Notes under the pieces: model-generated
Seen by the model: the letters and a program-made list of their open reading frames with translations, nothing else
What the model was told of the DNA's origin: nothing
Database searches by the model: none
Translations under genes and position numbers: made by a program
Shown here: positions 42,237 through 60,796 of the stretch, piece after piece
How positions within the stretch are numbered: position 1 is the stretch's first letter
Layout: every line of letters begins with the position of its first letter
Source: an uncultured Paracoccaceae bacterium
GTDB lineage: Bacteria > Pseudomonadota > Alphaproteobacteria > Rhodobacterales > Rhodobacteraceae
Assembly (NCBI GenBank): GCA_947493255.1
Contig: CANLQK010000008.1
Span: 62,001-126,000, forward strand
Direction: 5' to 3'
DNA: 64,000 nucleotides

Positions 42237-42590
42237 ATGCGCTTGAACGAAGTGGTCTATACGGACGCCAAACCGGTTGACGGTTACGGCCCAGGGTTCT
42301 TTCGGATTGGCGGCGAGGTGTATGAAGGCGCGTTGGTGGTGTTGCCCACTGGCATCGCGCCTTGGGGGGGCTACGCTGACCCCAAGACCTTGCTAGATGC
42401 TGTTGCTGATTTAGACGTTGTGTTCATGGGGACGGGCGCCGAGATTGCCCACATCCCCGCCGACCTACGGGCGACTTTGGAAGAGGCCGGTTTAGGCGTT
42501 GAGGTCATGTCTTCGCCGACGGCGTGCCGGACGTACAATGTGTTGCTGAGCGAAGGGCGGCGCGTAGGTTTGGCGTTGTTGCCTGTTTAG
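42237..42590 (+). CDS. Mth938-like (DUF498) domain protein
   Basis: From ATG 42237 (site GGCGGAGGA, 6 bases upstream) this 117-residue protein matches the Mth938/NDUFAF3-like fold: GPGFFRIGGEVYEGALVVLP, then AEIAHIPADLRATLEEAGLGVEVMSSPTACRTYNVL. The family's mitochondrial member helps assemble complex I, but bacterial function is not known. It lies 25 bases after secDF and 10 before ccmA. The longer frame from 42183 is not used because it overlaps secDF in a different frame. Confidence 0.85.
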   Translation: MRLNEVVYTDAKPVDGYGPGFFRIGGEVYEGALVVLPTGIAPWGGYADPKTLLDAVADLDVVFMGTGAEIAHIPADLRATLEEAGLGVEVMSSPTACRTYNVLLSEGRRVGLALLPV

Positions 42591-49925: not shown

Positions 49926-50071
49926 ATCGTTTCCTTGCACTCGCTTTGTGGTTGCTTAATGATCGTAAGAACGTCTAATTAATCAATGTATTGTTTGAAA
50001 TAAGTGGTAAGCGGTTTGGTAACTAAAAGACAGTATCGAAATTGGGTCTTGAGGGGCCGAGAGGGCACTGT

Positions 50072-50680
50072 GTGGTAGTTCTTGAAAATCCAAGCGACGT
50101 TAAAGCAATCTCTGGATCGGGATACTACATCGCGTTGCGAGTTGGTTTTGCATTTCCGCTTGAGGAAGTGAACGAGCTCCCTTCTACATGGGTCAATCAT
50201 TACACCAAATTGCGGTTTATGTTACAGGATCCTGTCATCCGATGGATCTATAGTAATACCGGCACCGTACGGTGGAGCGAAATTGAGATCGAAGATCCAT
50301 TGCGGGTTTTGGACCAAGCACAAACTTTTGGTTTGCGGTATGGTGTTGCTGTATCGTGCTTCGATGAAAACTCTGACGGGCAGCGATCTTTTGGGCATTT
50401 TGCACGTTCGGACCGCGAATTCGAGGCAGACGAAGTCGCTGCTCTTTACGCCTACATCCTGAGGCTTCATCGCGAGAAAGCCCCACCAACGAATCTGACG
50501 GATGCGGAGCTAGAGGCGCTGGCAATGGTAAAGGATGGCATGCGCTTAAAACAAATCGCCCATGAACTGGGAGTGTCGGAAGGCGCGGTTAAACAACGTT
50601 TGAAGAATGCCAAGACCAAGTTGGGCGCCCAGACATCTGCACAAGCTGCTGCAATGGTTAGAGATTTCGGTTTGGTCTGA
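50072..50680 (+). CDS. LuxR-family quorum-sensing regulator
   Basis: The product (202 residues from GTG 50072; TTG 50042 is an alternative) has the autoinducer pocket residues Trp and Tyr (STWVNHYTKL), Asp-Pro (LQDPVIRW), Trp (VRWSEI) and Gly (FGLRYGVAV), then a C-terminal LuxR HTH (LTDAELEALAMVKDGMRLK, IAHELGVSEGAVKQRLKNAK). GAGGG at 50061-50065 supports GTG 50072. It is divergent from the HTH-less paralogue and upstream of luxI, which it probably controls. The N-terminal domain resembles that paralogue along its whole length, so they are likely duplicates. Confidence 0.85.
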   Translation: MVVLENPSDVKAISGSGYYIALRVGFAFPLEEVNELPSTWVNHYTKLRFMLQDPVIRWIYSNTGTVRWSEIEIEDPLRVLDQAQTFGLRYGVAVSCFDENSDGQRSFGHFARSDREFEADEVAALYAYILRLHREKAPPTNLTDAELEALAMVKDGMRLKQIAHELGVSEGAVKQRLKNAKTKLGAQTSAQAAAMVRDFGLV

Positions 50681-50784
50681 AGCCTTTGAATTTGTTAATA
50701 AAAGGTTAAGTTCTCCGCCGTGGTCCGTTAAAACAGGTATGAAAACTTTTAGGTTAACAAGTCTTAAGGTTCGGGGCTAAATGG

Positions 50785-50803
50785 ACTCTCCATATAGGAG
50801 AGT
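50785..50803 (+). promoter_or_regulatory. Perfect dyad covering the luxI ribosome binding site
   Basis: ACTCTCCATATAGGAGAGT is a perfect inverted repeat (7-bp arms, loop ATATA). The right arm contains the AGGAG Shine-Dalgarno sequence, whose ATG is at 50808. As RNA the hairpin would hide the ribosome site; as DNA it resembles a lux-box-like LuxR operator placed downstream of the promoter. Either function would regulate the synthase, but neither is tested. Confidence 0.6.
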
Positions 50804-50807
50804 ATCT

Positions 50808-51422
50808 ATGAAAAACATCACCTTTGAATTGTCGAACGTACACCAACATGGTTCGGCCTTCTTCGACTACCTCGCCCTTCGTAAGCAGTTTTTTGTCGAC
50901 ACATTGCATTGGAAAATTCCACACAACGCAGATGTGGAAATGGACCAATACGACAACCCAATGGCCCGCTATTCATTGATTTTGGATGACGACGGACGTG
51001 TATTGGCTGGTGCACGAGCAATGTCTACGTCGTCAAGATGGGGTGACCACACCTACATGTTGAAGGACGCCATGTCGGGAAAATTGGAAACGATTCCGGA
51101 TAACTTAATCAATGATGTCATTGAGACACCTAAAGTTTGGGAATGCACCCGTTTGGTTATTTCACCAGATGTGCGGTCGATGCGGGTTCGGACCCAATGT
51201 TTGGATCTGATCGTCGAAGGGTTGATTGATATGGCAAATAAGGAAGGCGCGGATACGCTGATTTCTTTGTCAAACCTATGGCTCTTACGCGCATTAAAAC
51301 GGCTGGGGTACGGTGCCGAACTAATGGGTGAACCTTACCAGAATGACGATGATGGCCATAAGTATGCAGTGATGGCAATTGCCGCTCGTCATAAGATGAT
51401 TGTCGAAAAGACAGCGGCCTGA
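50808..51422 (+). CDS. Acyl-homoserine lactone synthase (LuxI family)
   Basis: LuxI-type enzymes make acyl-homoserine lactone signals from S-adenosylmethionine and an acyl carrier. From ATG 50808 the product is 204 residues and the invariant residues are present: Arg25, Phe29 and Trp35 (LRKQFFVDTLHW), Glu44/Asp46/Asp49 (EMDQYD), Arg70 (AGARAM) and Glu112/Arg115 (WECTRLV). It lies 127 bases downstream of luxR on the same strand, the classical arrangement. The acyl chain cannot be predicted. A stable terminator follows at 51441-51467. Confidence 0.92.
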   Translation: MKNITFELSNVHQHGSAFFDYLALRKQFFVDTLHWKIPHNADVEMDQYDNPMARYSLILDDDGRVLAGARAMSTSSRWGDHTYMLKDAMSGKLETIPDNLINDVIETPKVWECTRLVISPDVRSMRVRTQCLDLIVEGLIDMANKEGADTLISLSNLWLLRALKRLGYGAELMGEPYQNDDDGHKYAVMAIAARHKMIVEKTAA

Positions 51423-54422: not shown

Positions 54423-55631
54423 TTAGGTTAGTTTGGTTTCGATGTGGTTGCTGCGTTCTAGCGTTTGATGAACGGGGCAGCGATCTGCGATTTCCAGAAG
54501 GCGATTACGCTGTGTTTCGTCGAGGTCGCCTTTTAGTGTGATCAAACGGGTGAATTGGTCGATCTTGGTTTTGGTGTCAGTACCGGCATCTTGGCCATGC
54601 ACCTTGTCGTGGGTGACGTCGACGCTGACGTGATCAAGGGGCCAACCTTTGCGCCGCGCATACATGCGGATCGTCATTGAGGTACATGCACCAAGGCCGG
54701 CTGAGAGAAGGCCATAGGGTGTAAGGCCCTGATTAGTGCCGCCATATGCTGCTGGTTCGTCCGCCAGAATGTGGTGCGGGCCAGATTGAACGTCTTGAAG
54801 AAATCCGTTTGGATCAGCCTCGGAAACACGCAGGATGCCTTCTGGCGTGCCAATTGGTGGCGCAGGTCGTTTTAGGTCGAGGTAGCGAGTTACCCATGAT
54901 GCGATGACATCTGCCGCATATTCGGCGTCTTCGCCACGCGTCAACAGATGGTCTGCATCATCTAAGGTGACAAAGCTTTTGGGGTGTTTGGCGGCCATAA
55001 AGATATTCGATGCGTTATCGATAGATACAGTTTGGTCAAAGGGCGCATGAAGCACCAGCAACGCCGAATGCAATTTCGCAATCGCGGTATCGAGCTCCTC
55101 TGTGGCGACGTCGTTCAGGAAATCGGATGAGATACGAAAAGGTCGGCCTGCGAGCGAAACCTCTGCGACACCGTCTCTTTGAATTTCGTCGATTTTTGAA
55201 CCGAAGTTATGCGTTACATGCTGGGGATCATGGGGCGCGCCGATTGTGACGACGGCCTTGATGTTTTCCATTGTGCTTGCGGCCTTGAGAACGGCAGCAC
55301 CCCCAAGAGAGTGACCAATAAGAAGCGTCGGGGTGAGGCCACGTTTATCAAGTTCTGCACGGGCTGCATGTAAATCCTGCACATTGGTGGTGAATGTTGT
55401 GTTTTCAAATTCACCCATTGAATGGCCAAGGCCTGTGAAATCAAAGCGCAACACCGCGATGCCCATAGATGCCAGGCGCCCTGCAATTCGGCGTGCGGCT
55501 GGAATGTCTTTCGAACACGTAAAACAATGGGCAAATAGGGCGGTTGCCAGATGCGGGCCATCGGGCATATCGAGGCGTGCGGAAAGTTGGCCACCATCGT
55601 GGCCGGGAAATGTGAAACGAGTCATGGGCAT
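54423..55631 (-). CDS. Alpha/beta hydrolase fused to an OsmC domain
   Basis: The 402-residue protein from ATG 55631 (AAGGAC upstream) has an alpha/beta hydrolase domain (about 1-255) with nucleophile motif IGHSLGGA, and an OsmC domain (about 270-402) carrying the two redox-active cysteines (LGACTSMTIRMYA and DRCPVHQTLE). OsmC proteins are thiol peroxidases that reduce organic hydroperoxides. The fusion is found in several bacterial groups, but the joint role is not known; the hydrolase could release the peroxide substrate from a lipid or ester. Confidence 0.85.
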   Translation of the reverse strand: MPMTRFTFPGHDGGQLSARLDMPDGPHLATALFAHCFTCSKDIPAARRIAGRLASMGIAVLRFDFTGLGHSMGEFENTTFTTNVQDLHAARAELDKRGLTPTLLIGHSLGGAAVLKAASTMENIKAVVTIGAPHDPQHVTHNFGSKIDEIQRDGVAEVSLAGRPFRISSDFLNDVATEELDTAIAKLHSALLVLHAPFDQTVSIDNASNIFMAAKHPKSFVTLDDADHLLTRGEDAEYAADVIASWVTRYLDLKRPAPPIGTPEGILRVSEADPNGFLQDVQSGPHHILADEPAAYGGTNQGLTPYGLLSAGLGACTSMTIRMYARRKGWPLDHVSVDVTHDKVHGQDAGTDTKTKIDQFTRLITLKGDLDETQRNRLLEIADRCPVHQTLERSNHIETKLT

Positions 55632-55718
55632 GGAAAGTGTCCTTTTGTTGAGCCCAAAGTGGTGGTGGCTTCGTTTTGGTGCAAGGCGTGTGGCTGGTAC
55701 GTCACGGGAAGGTGAAAG

Positions 55719-56585
55719 ATGTGGCAAGTGGTAGGGCGTGCGTTCGTCGTGTTGGCAGGTGCGGTGTTGGCGGCCAGTTTTGCGGGTGAAATGCACGGTT
55801 TAGGTGACAGTCTGGCTGTCTTTCGCCCAGTTCTAATATGCGGTGTGATTGCCTGTGGCGCTTTGGTGTGGCGCTGGCGCGGGGCGCAGATTTTGATGGC
55901 AGCCGCAGTTGTTCTTGCGGGTTTGCATGGGGTGGCAATCGTTGGAAAAACGACCCACGCCGGCCAAGCGGATGTGGTCGTCTATCAAAAGAACATGTTG
56001 TTTCGAGGGCACGACCGGTCGGAATTGATCGCCGATATCCGCTCTGTTGGGGCCGACATTGTGGCCTTGCAAGAAGTAAGCCGCGTGAACCAACCCATGT
56101 TGGACAGGTTGCGCGGAACTTACCCGCATCAATTGCTGTGTAACGGGCATGCTGTTGGTGCGGTGGCAATACTGTCGAAAACGCCGTTGGATGGGCAAGA
56201 TTGTTCAAATCAGCACGGTTTTGCCCGAGCTGTGACAACGATTGACGGGCAGCAAGTACAGGTGTTTGCGATCCATCTTCATTGGCCGTGGCCCTACGGG
56301 CAGCGCGACCATCTTCAGCGGATTTTGCAAAACATGGTACCGCTGGCAGGAGCGGAAACGATTGTTGCAGGTGATTTTAATATGGTTGCATCAGGGCGCC
56401 CAATTGCATGGGTTGAACGTGAACTTCTGGTGGAACGGGTCGGGGCGTTGGTCAAGACATTTGAATTATTCGGATACCCCATTGGGATCGACCATGTTTT
56501 GGCCTCTGGGCGCGGAGGCGATTTGGATGTGCGCCCCAAGGCGGGGTCTGATCATTACGGCGTTGTTGCGCAGATTTACTGGTAG
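55719..56585 (+). CDS. Endonuclease/exonuclease/phosphatase family protein with membrane anchor
   Basis: The 288-residue protein has two or three hydrophobic helices in the first 80 residues and then an EEP fold with the expected motifs: QKNML near the first strand, ALQEVSR, IHLHWPWPYG, GDFNMVAS and SDHYGVVAQ. These residues bind metal and phosphate in EEP phosphodiesterases. The membrane anchor suggests an extracytoplasmic site of action. The substrate is unknown. It lies divergent from the OsmC gene, with its ATG preceded by GGGAAGG. Confidence 0.78.
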   Translation: MWQVVGRAFVVLAGAVLAASFAGEMHGLGDSLAVFRPVLICGVIACGALVWRWRGAQILMAAAVVLAGLHGVAIVGKTTHAGQADVVVYQKNMLFRGHDRSELIADIRSVGADIVALQEVSRVNQPMLDRLRGTYPHQLLCNGHAVGAVAILSKTPLDGQDCSNQHGFARAVTTIDGQQVQVFAIHLHWPWPYGQRDHLQRILQNMVPLAGAETIVAGDFNMVASGRPIAWVERELLVERVGALVKTFELFGYPIGIDHVLASGRGGDLDVRPKAGSDHYGVVAQIYW

Positions 56586-56589
56586 GGGC

Positions 56590-57930
56590 TTATTCCCCCA
56601 TCAACGCAGGATCCCACGGATAGGTCGTTAGGTTTTCAAACCCGTCATCTGTGATCAGGACCTGATCTTCGAGCTTGATCGAGAAATCGCCACCAACTTC
56701 ACCCACAAGGGCTTCGACGCAGATGGTCATGCCGGGCTTGAGTTCGTGGTCAAATGCACCGTCGACCATTTTGTCAGGGTAGGCGACAAGCGGCCATTCA
56801 TCACATAGGCCGACGCCGTGCATCAGGCAGCTGTACTTTTGGGCCTGATATTTGTCATGCAAGACATGTGTGTTGCGGCTAAGGTCTTGGATGTTCACGC
56901 CAGGTTTTAGCATTTGCATATTGGTTTCAATGTGTTCAACGGCGTGTTTCATCGCGTCGACCATGTCAGGGCGTGGTTTTTCGGAGCCAACCCACCATGT
57001 GCGGCTGATGTCGATGCAGATGCCGTAGCTGCCGATCAGGTCAGTATCAAAGGCGAGGATTTCATTGGGCTGGGTGATGCGGGGGCCGCATTCTTGAAAC
57101 CATGGGTTTGTGCGTGGCCCAGATGACAGCAGGCGTGTTTCGATCCATTCACCGCCTCGTTTGATGTTTTCGGCGTGCAGAACGGCCCAGATGTCGTCTT
57201 CGGATGTTGAACCGTTGCCGGAATAGGCGCGGGTGAAGTCCTCCATCGCTTTGACTGCGGTTTCGCAGGCGTGATTTGCGCAGCGCATCGCGAGGATCTC
57301 GTCTGGGCCTTTGATAGAACGGGCATGTTCTGTGACTTCTTCACCCTCCAACACCTCGATGCCCCGTGCCTCGAGGGCGCGCAGCCCGCTGACCATAATT
57401 TTATCGACAGCCAGCTGCACATTGCTGCCTGCATGTTCGCGCAGAAGATCGCGCACTTCGTCGGCAAAGGTATTGGCGGCATCTTGGTCTTTATCGCCGT
57501 TCGAAAAGTAAAACATGGAGGCGCCAGATCGTTGTTCACGAACTAAGGGATTGAATTCACTTAGGAATGGAGAGTTCTAGTAGTCCCAAATGACCATGTA
57601 GCCATCAGCGCAGACCAAAACAGCACGGAATGGGTTGTGTGTGTTCCAAAGCTGCATGTTGGTGCTGTCTGTTGCATACCTGATGTTCAGAGGGTCGAAC
57701 ATCAATACGCCGCCATAGTCGCGCGCGTTAATGTGCGAGACGAGCCGATCAAGGCGATACTGCCGCATAGCGGGGAGGTTTGGCAGTGTTAGACCTGCGC
57801 CTTTCCATTCATCAAACGCCAACTGTGTGGGGCCTATTTCGACGCGATCCGCGTCATTAGGGGTGCCATCACCCAAGGTCGCACCTCTGGTAGGGTCGAT
57901 TTTTCGGGTATCGCTGTAGTGGCTTTTCAT
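56590..57930 (-). pseudogene. dddP: DMSP lyase DddP (M24 family), interrupted by one in-frame amber codon
   Basis: Read as one frame from ATG 57930 to the stop at 56590 the product would have 446 residues, the usual DddP length, with the metal-site pattern of M24 proteins (AFDTDLIGSYGICIDIS, CLMHGVGLCDEW, CVEALVG, KLEDQV). DddP releases dimethyl sulfide from dimethylsulfoniopropionate. A TAG at 57577-57579 breaks it after VIWDY, where family members usually read DYKNSPFLS; the code before and after is in the same frame and still DddP-like. A single AAG-to-TAG change explains it. The 3' half has an internal ATG at 57516 but no good ribosome site, so restart is unlikely. Confidence 0.9.
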
Positions 57931-58027
57931 GACGTGCCTCCCGTGGTCATACTGCAAGCGTGACGTGGGAAGGATTTTGTGTCCGGTCTGAAAACGACAT
58001 GAAAATGCTGTGCCAGGGGGCGACGGT

Positions 58028-58759
58028 TTGAAGCCAATTTTACAAGAAAGTTTGCCAGCTGGGCAGGAAGAACGCGCGGCAGCGCGTTTGCCATCAATGG
58101 TGCCGGTCGAGGGTGCATGGTTAGAAACAGACGAAGCCTATGCCGCGCAAATGGCGAAGCGCCGAGGTCTCATTGGAATGCAGATGGATGACGTTTATGC
58201 GCAATTGCCCGATGGGTTAGTGGCCTCGCGTGCTATGCTGGACGACGTACTGGTTAACCTGCCTGCGACATTCAAACATAACCGCAACGAGGTCGTTTGC
58301 CCTGATGGCGAGGTTGTAGCGTTGGATTGGGACGCACCGTTGCTGTGCCTTGGCAGGATCATCCAACAAGATGTCTGCATTCTAGAGAAGCAAGGGGACG
58401 AGCACGTACTGACGGGCGCTATTTTGTGTTTTCCAGCGAGTTGGACGTTGTCGCAGAAAATTGGCAAGCCGTTGATTGGTATCCACACACCAGTAGCTGA
58501 ATACGATGACAGCATCGCGAAACGCGTGCAGCGGTTGTTTGATGGAGTTAGGCGTGGGCGACCGATGTGGCGCGCCAACCATTTGCGTTACGACGACCCC
58601 AACTTGTTTCAGCCGCGAGCGGAAAACGATCCGCGCCCCGTTGGGACAAAACAGGCGCGATACATCAGGAGCGAACGCCAAACAGTGTTACGTTTGGCCG
58701 TTCCTAATGCGGTCGCGTTTGTTATTCATTCGATAGTAGTTGACGTTGGGCTAGGCTAA
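58028..58759 (+). CDS. DUF3445 (heme-dependent oxidative N-demethylase-like) protein
   Basis: The product (243 residues from TTG 58028; GTG 58010 is a second option) matches the DUF3445/HODM family, which binds heme and oxidatively demethylates amines in the HODM complex. Typical parts are LKPILQ at the N-terminus, LPSMVPVEGAWLETDEAYAAQM and VLRLAVPNAVAFVIHSIVV. AGGGGG at 58015-58020 favours TTG 58028. Only one gene of the family is here; other HODM subunits are not in the window. It is divergent from dddP. Substrate unknown. Confidence 0.75.
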   Translation: MKPILQESLPAGQEERAAARLPSMVPVEGAWLETDEAYAAQMAKRRGLIGMQMDDVYAQLPDGLVASRAMLDDVLVNLPATFKHNRNEVVCPDGEVVALDWDAPLLCLGRIIQQDVCILEKQGDEHVLTGAILCFPASWTLSQKIGKPLIGIHTPVAEYDDSIAKRVQRLFDGVRRGRPMWRANHLRYDDPNLFQPRAENDPRPVGTKQARYIRSERQTVLRLAVPNAVAFVIHSIVVDVGLG

Positions 58760-59332: not shown

Positions 59333-60739
59333 TTAGCAGCTGTAGTACAGCTTGAATTCAACAGGGTGAGGAGTGTGTTCGTATTCGTACACTTCTTCCC
59401 ATTTCAGATCCATGTAGCCTTCGATCTGGTCTTTGGTGAACACGTCGCCAGCCAAGAGGAAGTCCATGTCTTTTTCCAGCTCGTCCAGTGCTTCACGCAA
59501 GGATGCACAAACTGTTGGAATTTCAGCCAATTCTTCTGGTGGCAGATCGTAAAGATCTTTGTCAGAAGCCGGGCCTGGATCGATTTTGTTTTTGATGCCG
59601 TCAAGGCCAGCCATCAACAGTGCGGAGAAGCACAGGTATGGGTTGGCAGCTGGATCTGGGAAACGAGCCTCAACGCGCTTGGCTTTCGGGCTGTCTGTCC
59701 AAGGAATACGGACACAACCGGAACGGTTAGACGCAGAGTAAGCGCGAAGAACTGGTGCTTCGAAACCCGGGATCAAACGCTTGTAGGAGTTTGTGGATGG
59801 GTTTGTGAACGCGTTCAGGGCTTTGGCGTGCTTCAGGATGCCGCCGATGAACCACAGAGCTTCGTCGGAGAGATCAGCGTATTTGTCGCCTGCGAACAAT
59901 GGCTTGCCATCTTTCCAGATGGACATGTTCACGTGCATACCTGTGCCATTATCGCCAGCGATTGGCTTTGGCATGAATGTAGCGGATTTGCCGTACGCCT
60001 GTGCCACGTTGTGGATCACGTATTTGTACTTCTGAAGCTCATCAGCTTGAGTTGTCAATGAACCGAAGATTAGGCCCAGTTCGTGCTGACAGGACGCAAC
60101 CTCGTGGTGGTGCTTGTCCACTTTCATGCCGAGACGCTTCATTGTGGAGAGCATTTCGGAACGAATGTCGTGTGCATCGTCGATTGGGTTTACAGGGAAG
60201 TAGCCGCCTTTAACGCCAGGACGGTGACCTGTGTTGCCCATTTCGTATTCAGCGTCTGTGTTCCAAGCCGCATCGATTGCGTCAACTTGGTAGGACACTT
60301 TGTTCATGCCGACTTGGTAACGAACGTCGTCGAACAGGAAGAATTCAGCTTCTGGGCCGAAGTAGGACACGTCGCCAATACCGGAAGATTTCAGGTAGGC
60401 TTCTGCGCGCTCGGCTGTGCCGCGTGGGTCACGGTCGTAGCCTTCGCCTGTGTCTGGCTCAACGATAGAGCAGTGCAGGCAGAGTGTTTTCTCCGCGTAG
60501 AACGGGTCAACATAGGCGCTGGACACGTCTGGCATCAGTTTCATGTCGGATTCGTCGATGGATTTCCAACCAGCGATGGAAGAGCCGTCAAACATGAAGC
60601 CATCTTCGAGGAAGTCTTCGTCTACCTGATCGGACATCAGTGTAACGTGCTGCAGTTTGCCGCGCGGATCGGTGAAACGAATGTCGACGTATTCGATTTC
60701 TTCATCCGCAATCTTTTTTACGAGGTCTTTATTGCTCAT
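59333..60739 (-). CDS. glnA: Glutamine synthetase type I
   Basis: GlnA makes glutamine from glutamate and ammonia. From ATG 60739 the product is 468 residues, the normal length of the dodecameric GSI-beta form. Conserved parts include [33 protein letters not shown], and NRSGCVRIP. The adenylylation site is kept in DLYDLPPEE (Tyr near 397), so it is probably controlled by GlnE. A longer start at 60766 has no better ribosome site. The gene lies 57 bases downstream of glnB, the normal alphaproteobacterial glnBA pair. Confidence 0.96.
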
Positions 60740-60796
60740 ATCTCTAAGGTTCCCCTGGTTAGACATTGTATTAAGTGTTGTGTGGATGGACGCGCC

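Follow-up and report, generated by a model that had tools for sequence, protein, structure and literature searches.

The window, the whole stretch of 64,000 nucleotides analysed here, comes from a 3.36 Mb genome (G000; 24 contigs, 99.78% complete) that belongs with Octadecabacter; the seven named loci listed first are from Octadecabacter and Pseudooctadecabacter. Two minus-strand reading frames within it, 57930-57580 and 57576-56590, join in phase and are the two parts of a single gene for the dimethylsulfoniopropionate (DMSP) lyase DddP, separated by one stop codon. The features of the locus are listed below; where neighbouring genes are named outside Pfam and NCBIfam matches, the names are those we presume from their sequences.

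54423..55796, minus strand: hydrolase-OsmC fusion, the conserved flank on the other side of the dddP site (PF02566 and alpha/beta-hydrolase matches; synteny)
55719..56585, plus strand: EEP, endonuclease/exonuclease/phosphatase family, which takes a divergent form in two relatives without dddP (PF03372; identity matrix)
56590..57516, minus strand: putative internal restart at ATG codon 139, 308 aa, without the beginning of the N domain (mechanical open reading frame)
56590..57576, minus strand: dddP 3' piece, codons 119-446 and TAA, metal-binding C domain (NF043017 positions 118-443; six ligands)
57577..57579, minus strand: in-frame TAG, codon 118, Lys in the relatives compared (alignment of distinct sequences and further loci)
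57580..57930, minus strand: dddP 5' piece, codons 1-117, covering the tail and the beginning of the N domain (NF043017 positions 2-116; 4rzy_A 1-117)
58010..58759, plus strand: HODM_asu-like protein (PF11927)
59333..60766, minus strand: conserved flank of the dddP site, which we take to be glnA from its sequence (synteny)

Most of the order glnB-glnA-(HODM-like)-dddP-(EEP)-hydrolase/OsmC-bioY-purB-luxI-luxR recurs at the genus loci, and part of it in Thalassobium and Loktanella, which places the window's dddP at its ancestral, orthologous position. Its immediate neighbours are variable: G004, G010 and G018 yielded no HODM gene at their loci, and G006 and G010 no EEP. At window positions 50042-51422 an autoinducer synthase adjoins a LuxR-type regulator; the pair recurs in many of the relatives examined, and in the G017 stretch no synthase turned up.

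Against the NCBIfam profile for DddP, NF043017, whose equivalog cut-off is 600 bits, the upstream piece aligns with positions 2-116 (234.5 bits) and the downstream piece with positions 118-443 (628.9 bits, by itself above the cut-off), so that one residue is replaced with neither shift nor deletion; read through the stop in the genome profile search, the gene scores 881.6 bits and qualifies as an equivalog. The solved DddP structure 4rzy_A aligns gap-free on each side of the stop (1-117 and 119-445). All six metal ligands in the list of PMC4108388 (D295, D297, D307, H371, E406 and E421) are kept, as are Y366 and D377. The earlier note's description of one in-phase gene with a single lesion and intact metal residues is thus borne out by both the profile and the structure. 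In sequence, length, six ligands, proposed base D377 and Y366, the gene agrees with the DddP family (NF043017; 4rzy, 4rzz, 4s00, 4s01, 4b28), from which it differs in that its frame is cut by TAG at codon 118, and an uninterrupted frame spanning both domains, as a working enzyme would have, is lacking.

The TAG (57579-57577, minus strand) stands between VIWDY and NSPFL, where the earlier note placed a lysine in family members and proposed aligning relatives to see whether AAG is ancestral. Codon 118 encodes lysine in all 108 other distinct DddP sequences picked by motif (AAG in 70, AAA in 38), and the window gene is the only one of the 109 with TAG. The four of 125 DddP loci that the motif missed likewise have lysine and no stop, so that this residue holds throughout the sequences compared, with either lysine codon.

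We propose that a single nonsense substitution recently broke dddP. Translation would end after 117 residues, inside the N domain, to give a fragment without the metal site, and a product restarted at codon 139 would be missing a portion of the N domain that closes off the active site of the partner chain; in RdDddP, one chain contributes its N domain as the tunnel wall of its partner (PMC4108388). With such a fragment and such a defective restart product, DddP activity would be lost. Reinitiation at codon 139 could instead yield a working C-domain enzyme, the split gene functioning as two pieces, since the C domain is intact and carries all six ligands downstream of an in-frame ATG. However, the N domain belongs to the dimer and the substrate tunnel (PMC4108388), the break occurs in just one of the 109 distinct sequences, and no clear ribosome-binding site for the codon 139 start was recognised by eye, which makes a functional split gene very improbable.

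After loss of DddP activity by nonsense mutation, DMSP would be expected, from the gene content, to go mainly to demethylation via DmdA. The window genome contains dmdA (655.7 bits against a cut-off of 410), and the gene next to it scores above the cut-off of the acrylyl-CoA reductase family (444.2 against 297.25) and lies just below the AcuI equivalog cut-off (421.8 against 440). With dmdA above its cut-off and an acuI-like neighbour, DMSP demethylation is likely kept, and for this route the suggestion of the earlier note that other DMSP pathways remain to the cell holds good. Among DMSP lyases, the cupin type (PF16867) has no match in the genome. Fused DddD is about 830 aa long, and no frame of that length was found; the genome's four PF02515 matches lie in frames of 396-473 aa. 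DMSOP is a further substrate of DddP (PMC10686828), and activity on it would be lost too. Another genome of the genus, G003, has a PF16867 DMSP-lyase match (L183, G003:C1:3569040-3569342) with one in-frame TGA, perhaps another broken DMSP lyase.

Full-length DddP could still be made at some level if the TAG were read through or suppressed. Two RF00005 searches of the genome, one strict and one with E up to 10, found 36 tRNA genes above the cut-off and one weak match, and none of the 36 carries the anticodon CUA, which reads UAG. The list is not complete, as tRNA-Tyr, tRNA-Ile(GAU) and tRNA-Ala(UGC) are missing from it, and the gap at tRNA-Tyr leaves some room for a suppressor. A pattern for the tRNA-Tyr anticodon arm had no match in the window genome and 32 across the genus; ARAGORN found no tRNA-Tyr in the 30 loci fetched, so the pattern is wrong for this group and has no bearing on a suppressor. 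Of the 47 window gene groups that end within 12 codons of the ends in relatives, 7 terminate in TAG, which is thus not left unused as a terminator, as recoding would have it. Although purifying selection seems intact on both stop-bearing branches of the genus (the window's own and that of G002, described below), suppression is unlikely given the absence of a UAG-reading tRNA among the 36 and the ordinary use of TAG, and we consider continued synthesis of full-length DddP highly improbable.

The age of the stop was addressed with a branch model of 16 taxa and 442 codons. Overall omega for dddP is 0.056, with 0.039 on the window's own branch against 0.057 in the background, and omega = 1 on the own branch is rejected (2dlnL 91). 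The neighbouring hydrolase has an own-branch omega of 0.038, like that of dddP, and purB one of 0.002 against 0.038 (2dlnL 20.7). The own branch is close to saturated at synonymous sites (t about 3), and omega on stop-free branches varies from 0.005 to 0.31 (4 of 14 other dddP tips fitted). Limits on an unconstrained final part of the own branch, taken at 2dlnL 3.84 with other branch lengths held fixed, are at most about 1.3% if the earlier omega equals the background and at most about 4% if it is free; even with a free earlier omega, neutral shares of 5% or more are rejected (2dlnL 5.4 at 5%, 21.8 at 10%). An attempted positive control, the stop-bearing hydrolase of G015, gave omega 0.078 against 0.058, which is not significant (2dlnL 2.2), so that the omega test draws its power solely from the likelihood profile.

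With at most about 1.3-4% of the own branch neutral, the stop is very recent, perhaps at strain level, or not real. The codon model therefore agrees with the earlier note on recency; the raised dN/dS for which that note proposed to look, and which would follow inactivation of a pseudogene, was not found, and its absence fits a pseudogene only if the event is very recent. A TAG older than the split from G017, with G017 losing the pseudogene later, was considered and rejected: roughly one third of the own branch, or more, would have to be neutral (0.083/0.235, lengths taken from two different trees), and a neutral share of 35% gives a 2dlnL of at least 95. Missing decay is also expected from a sequence error or from a tolerated stop.

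The main rival to a real pseudogene is a base-calling or assembly error, in which case the cell would carry an intact dddP and the TAG would be absent from its DNA. A lone substitution without decay is the appearance expected of an error, and the assembly is a 24-contig draft of unstated coverage. Substitution errors are, however, rare in high-coverage draft assemblies. The window was screened for lesions by comparing the reading frames of two relatives with it; unfiltered, the screen gave numerous stops that came from antisense frames. Once any match lying under a better one in a different frame was removed (121 of 174 kept), 54 gene groups were left, five of them with a stop: dddP and four others, two at the end of an alignment (1486 and 53636), one in a weak match of 41% identity (42237-42590) and one in a frame antisense to glnB (61076). 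We judge that these four are not lesions of real genes, which leaves dddP as the sole real internal lesion, with none among the other 53 groups. The gene hit by the stop is, moreover, one that relatives have lost repeatedly, and an error at this site appears improbable. Of the three options left by the earlier note, suppression is unlikely given the tRNAs found and the ordinary use of TAG, and the real event is favoured by the repeated loss of dddP in relatives.

This genus-wide loss pattern is beyond what the earlier note could see. In an NF043017 profile search over 19 genus genomes, ten have a full-length open dddP (G001, G003, G004, G005, G006, G009, G010, G011, G013 and G018), in G008 a piece of the gene lies at the edge of a contig, and in two genomes, G002 and that of the window, a stop interrupts it. 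In G007, G012, G015 and G017 (L258, L257, L259 and L256, respectively) the locus is contiguous and conserved but without dddP, and the incomplete genomes G014 and G016 (61% and 74%) gave no match. More distant DddP relatives occur elsewhere in G012 and G015, at 281 and 110 bits and thus below the cut-off of 600; the former, a divergent relative in a genome without the orthologue, is L017 (G012:C10:15165-16328).

The dddP of G002 (L179:10103-11437) occupies the same locus as that of the window and also carries a single in-frame stop without decay (branch omega 0.049). Unlike the TAG at 118 in the window gene, this stop is a TGA, and it lies at codon 404, a position that is Cys in the window gene, two residues before ligand E406; in contrast to the window the adjoining EEP gene is also damaged, being partly missing. 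Selenocysteine at this TGA was rejected, as none of the 19 genus genomes passes the SelB cut-off, which likewise speaks against reading through; we read the matches below the cut-off as EF-Tu and related factors. In the same search the window genome had no strong elongation-factor match, unlike 7 of the 11 most complete genus genomes; this and its missing tRNAs probably reflect unassembled repeats. We infer that G002 is O. antarcticus 307 and G003 O. arcticus 238, and the table in PMC4818494, in which DddP is blank for O. antarcticus and marked for O. arcticus, fits the stop in the former and the open gene in the latter.

A tree from five flanking genes places G017, the closest relative (88.5% identity), beside the window genome, and G012, without dddP, beside G001, with an intact one (94.8% identity). 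G015 groups with G003 and G009, both intact (support 87), G002 stands next to these, and G007 lies elsewhere with weak support (47). As the stop must be younger than the G017 split, simple parsimony counts six losses with a genuine TAG and five without it, and three routes of loss are represented. The EEP genes beside the empty site in G017 and G012 are 55% identical to each other and 31-38% identical to the other ten compared, while the hydrolase beyond follows the species (window genome and G017 86%, G001 and G012 98%), which suggests that in these two genomes a version without dddP took the place of the EEP-dddP segment, as opposed to a plain deletion. The link between EEP type and dddP loss is not strict, as G005 has a third divergent EEP with an intact dddP. 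G007 keeps an ordinary EEP and lacks dddP and HODM, and G015 lacks dddP and EEP. The hydrolase/OsmC gene beside the empty site of G015 (L259:9793-10929) has an in-frame TAG of its own and a slightly raised omega.

At family level, 217 of 394 genomes pass the DddP cut-off, and among the matches listed only the window genome has a stop, compared with two of the twelve above-cut-off genes in the genus; on the listed matches, this hints at more frequent breakage in the genus than in the family. Octadecabacter is known for many pseudogenes, with 361 given for O. antarcticus and 411 for O. arcticus in PMC3646047, and the window's dddP is likewise broken in that group; those of the polar strains are described there as mostly linked to transposable elements, whereas the dddP lesion is a point change. 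No report of a broken dddP in this genus was found in the literature searched, and by term search the main text of PMC3646047 has neither 'DMSP' nor 'dimethylsulfoniopropionate'.

Taken together, we put the probability at roughly three in four that the TAG is a real, fresh nonsense mutation, in an Octadecabacter-group genome, of the orthologous dddP in its ancestral position. The loss is in kind an ordinary gene loss, and it gains its value from being one of several parallel losses at a single locus. That the genus sheds dddP in parallel under selection, in about six losses by nonsense mutation, deletion and exchange of the EEP-dddP segment, is a tentative and rather doubtful extension of this reading; the presence of HODM and EEP varies as well, so that the stretch around dddP is changeable in general, and this weakens the case for a shedding specific to dddP. 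Were it true, the window would show the freshest step of a process in which DddP cleavage is switched off lineage by lineage while demethylation stays, at least in the window genome.

In one ocean survey, dddP made up about 65% of bacterial ddd genes (PMC10686828), and gene counts of this kind serve to predict the release of dimethyl sulfide (DMS), which is climate-active. The window's dddP would be counted as present by a read or profile survey, yet most likely no enzyme is made from it. As there are relatives without dddP at the same spot, including close pairs with and without the gene such as G001 and G012 (94.8% in the flanking genes), the group allows the worth of DddP to the cell to be tested.
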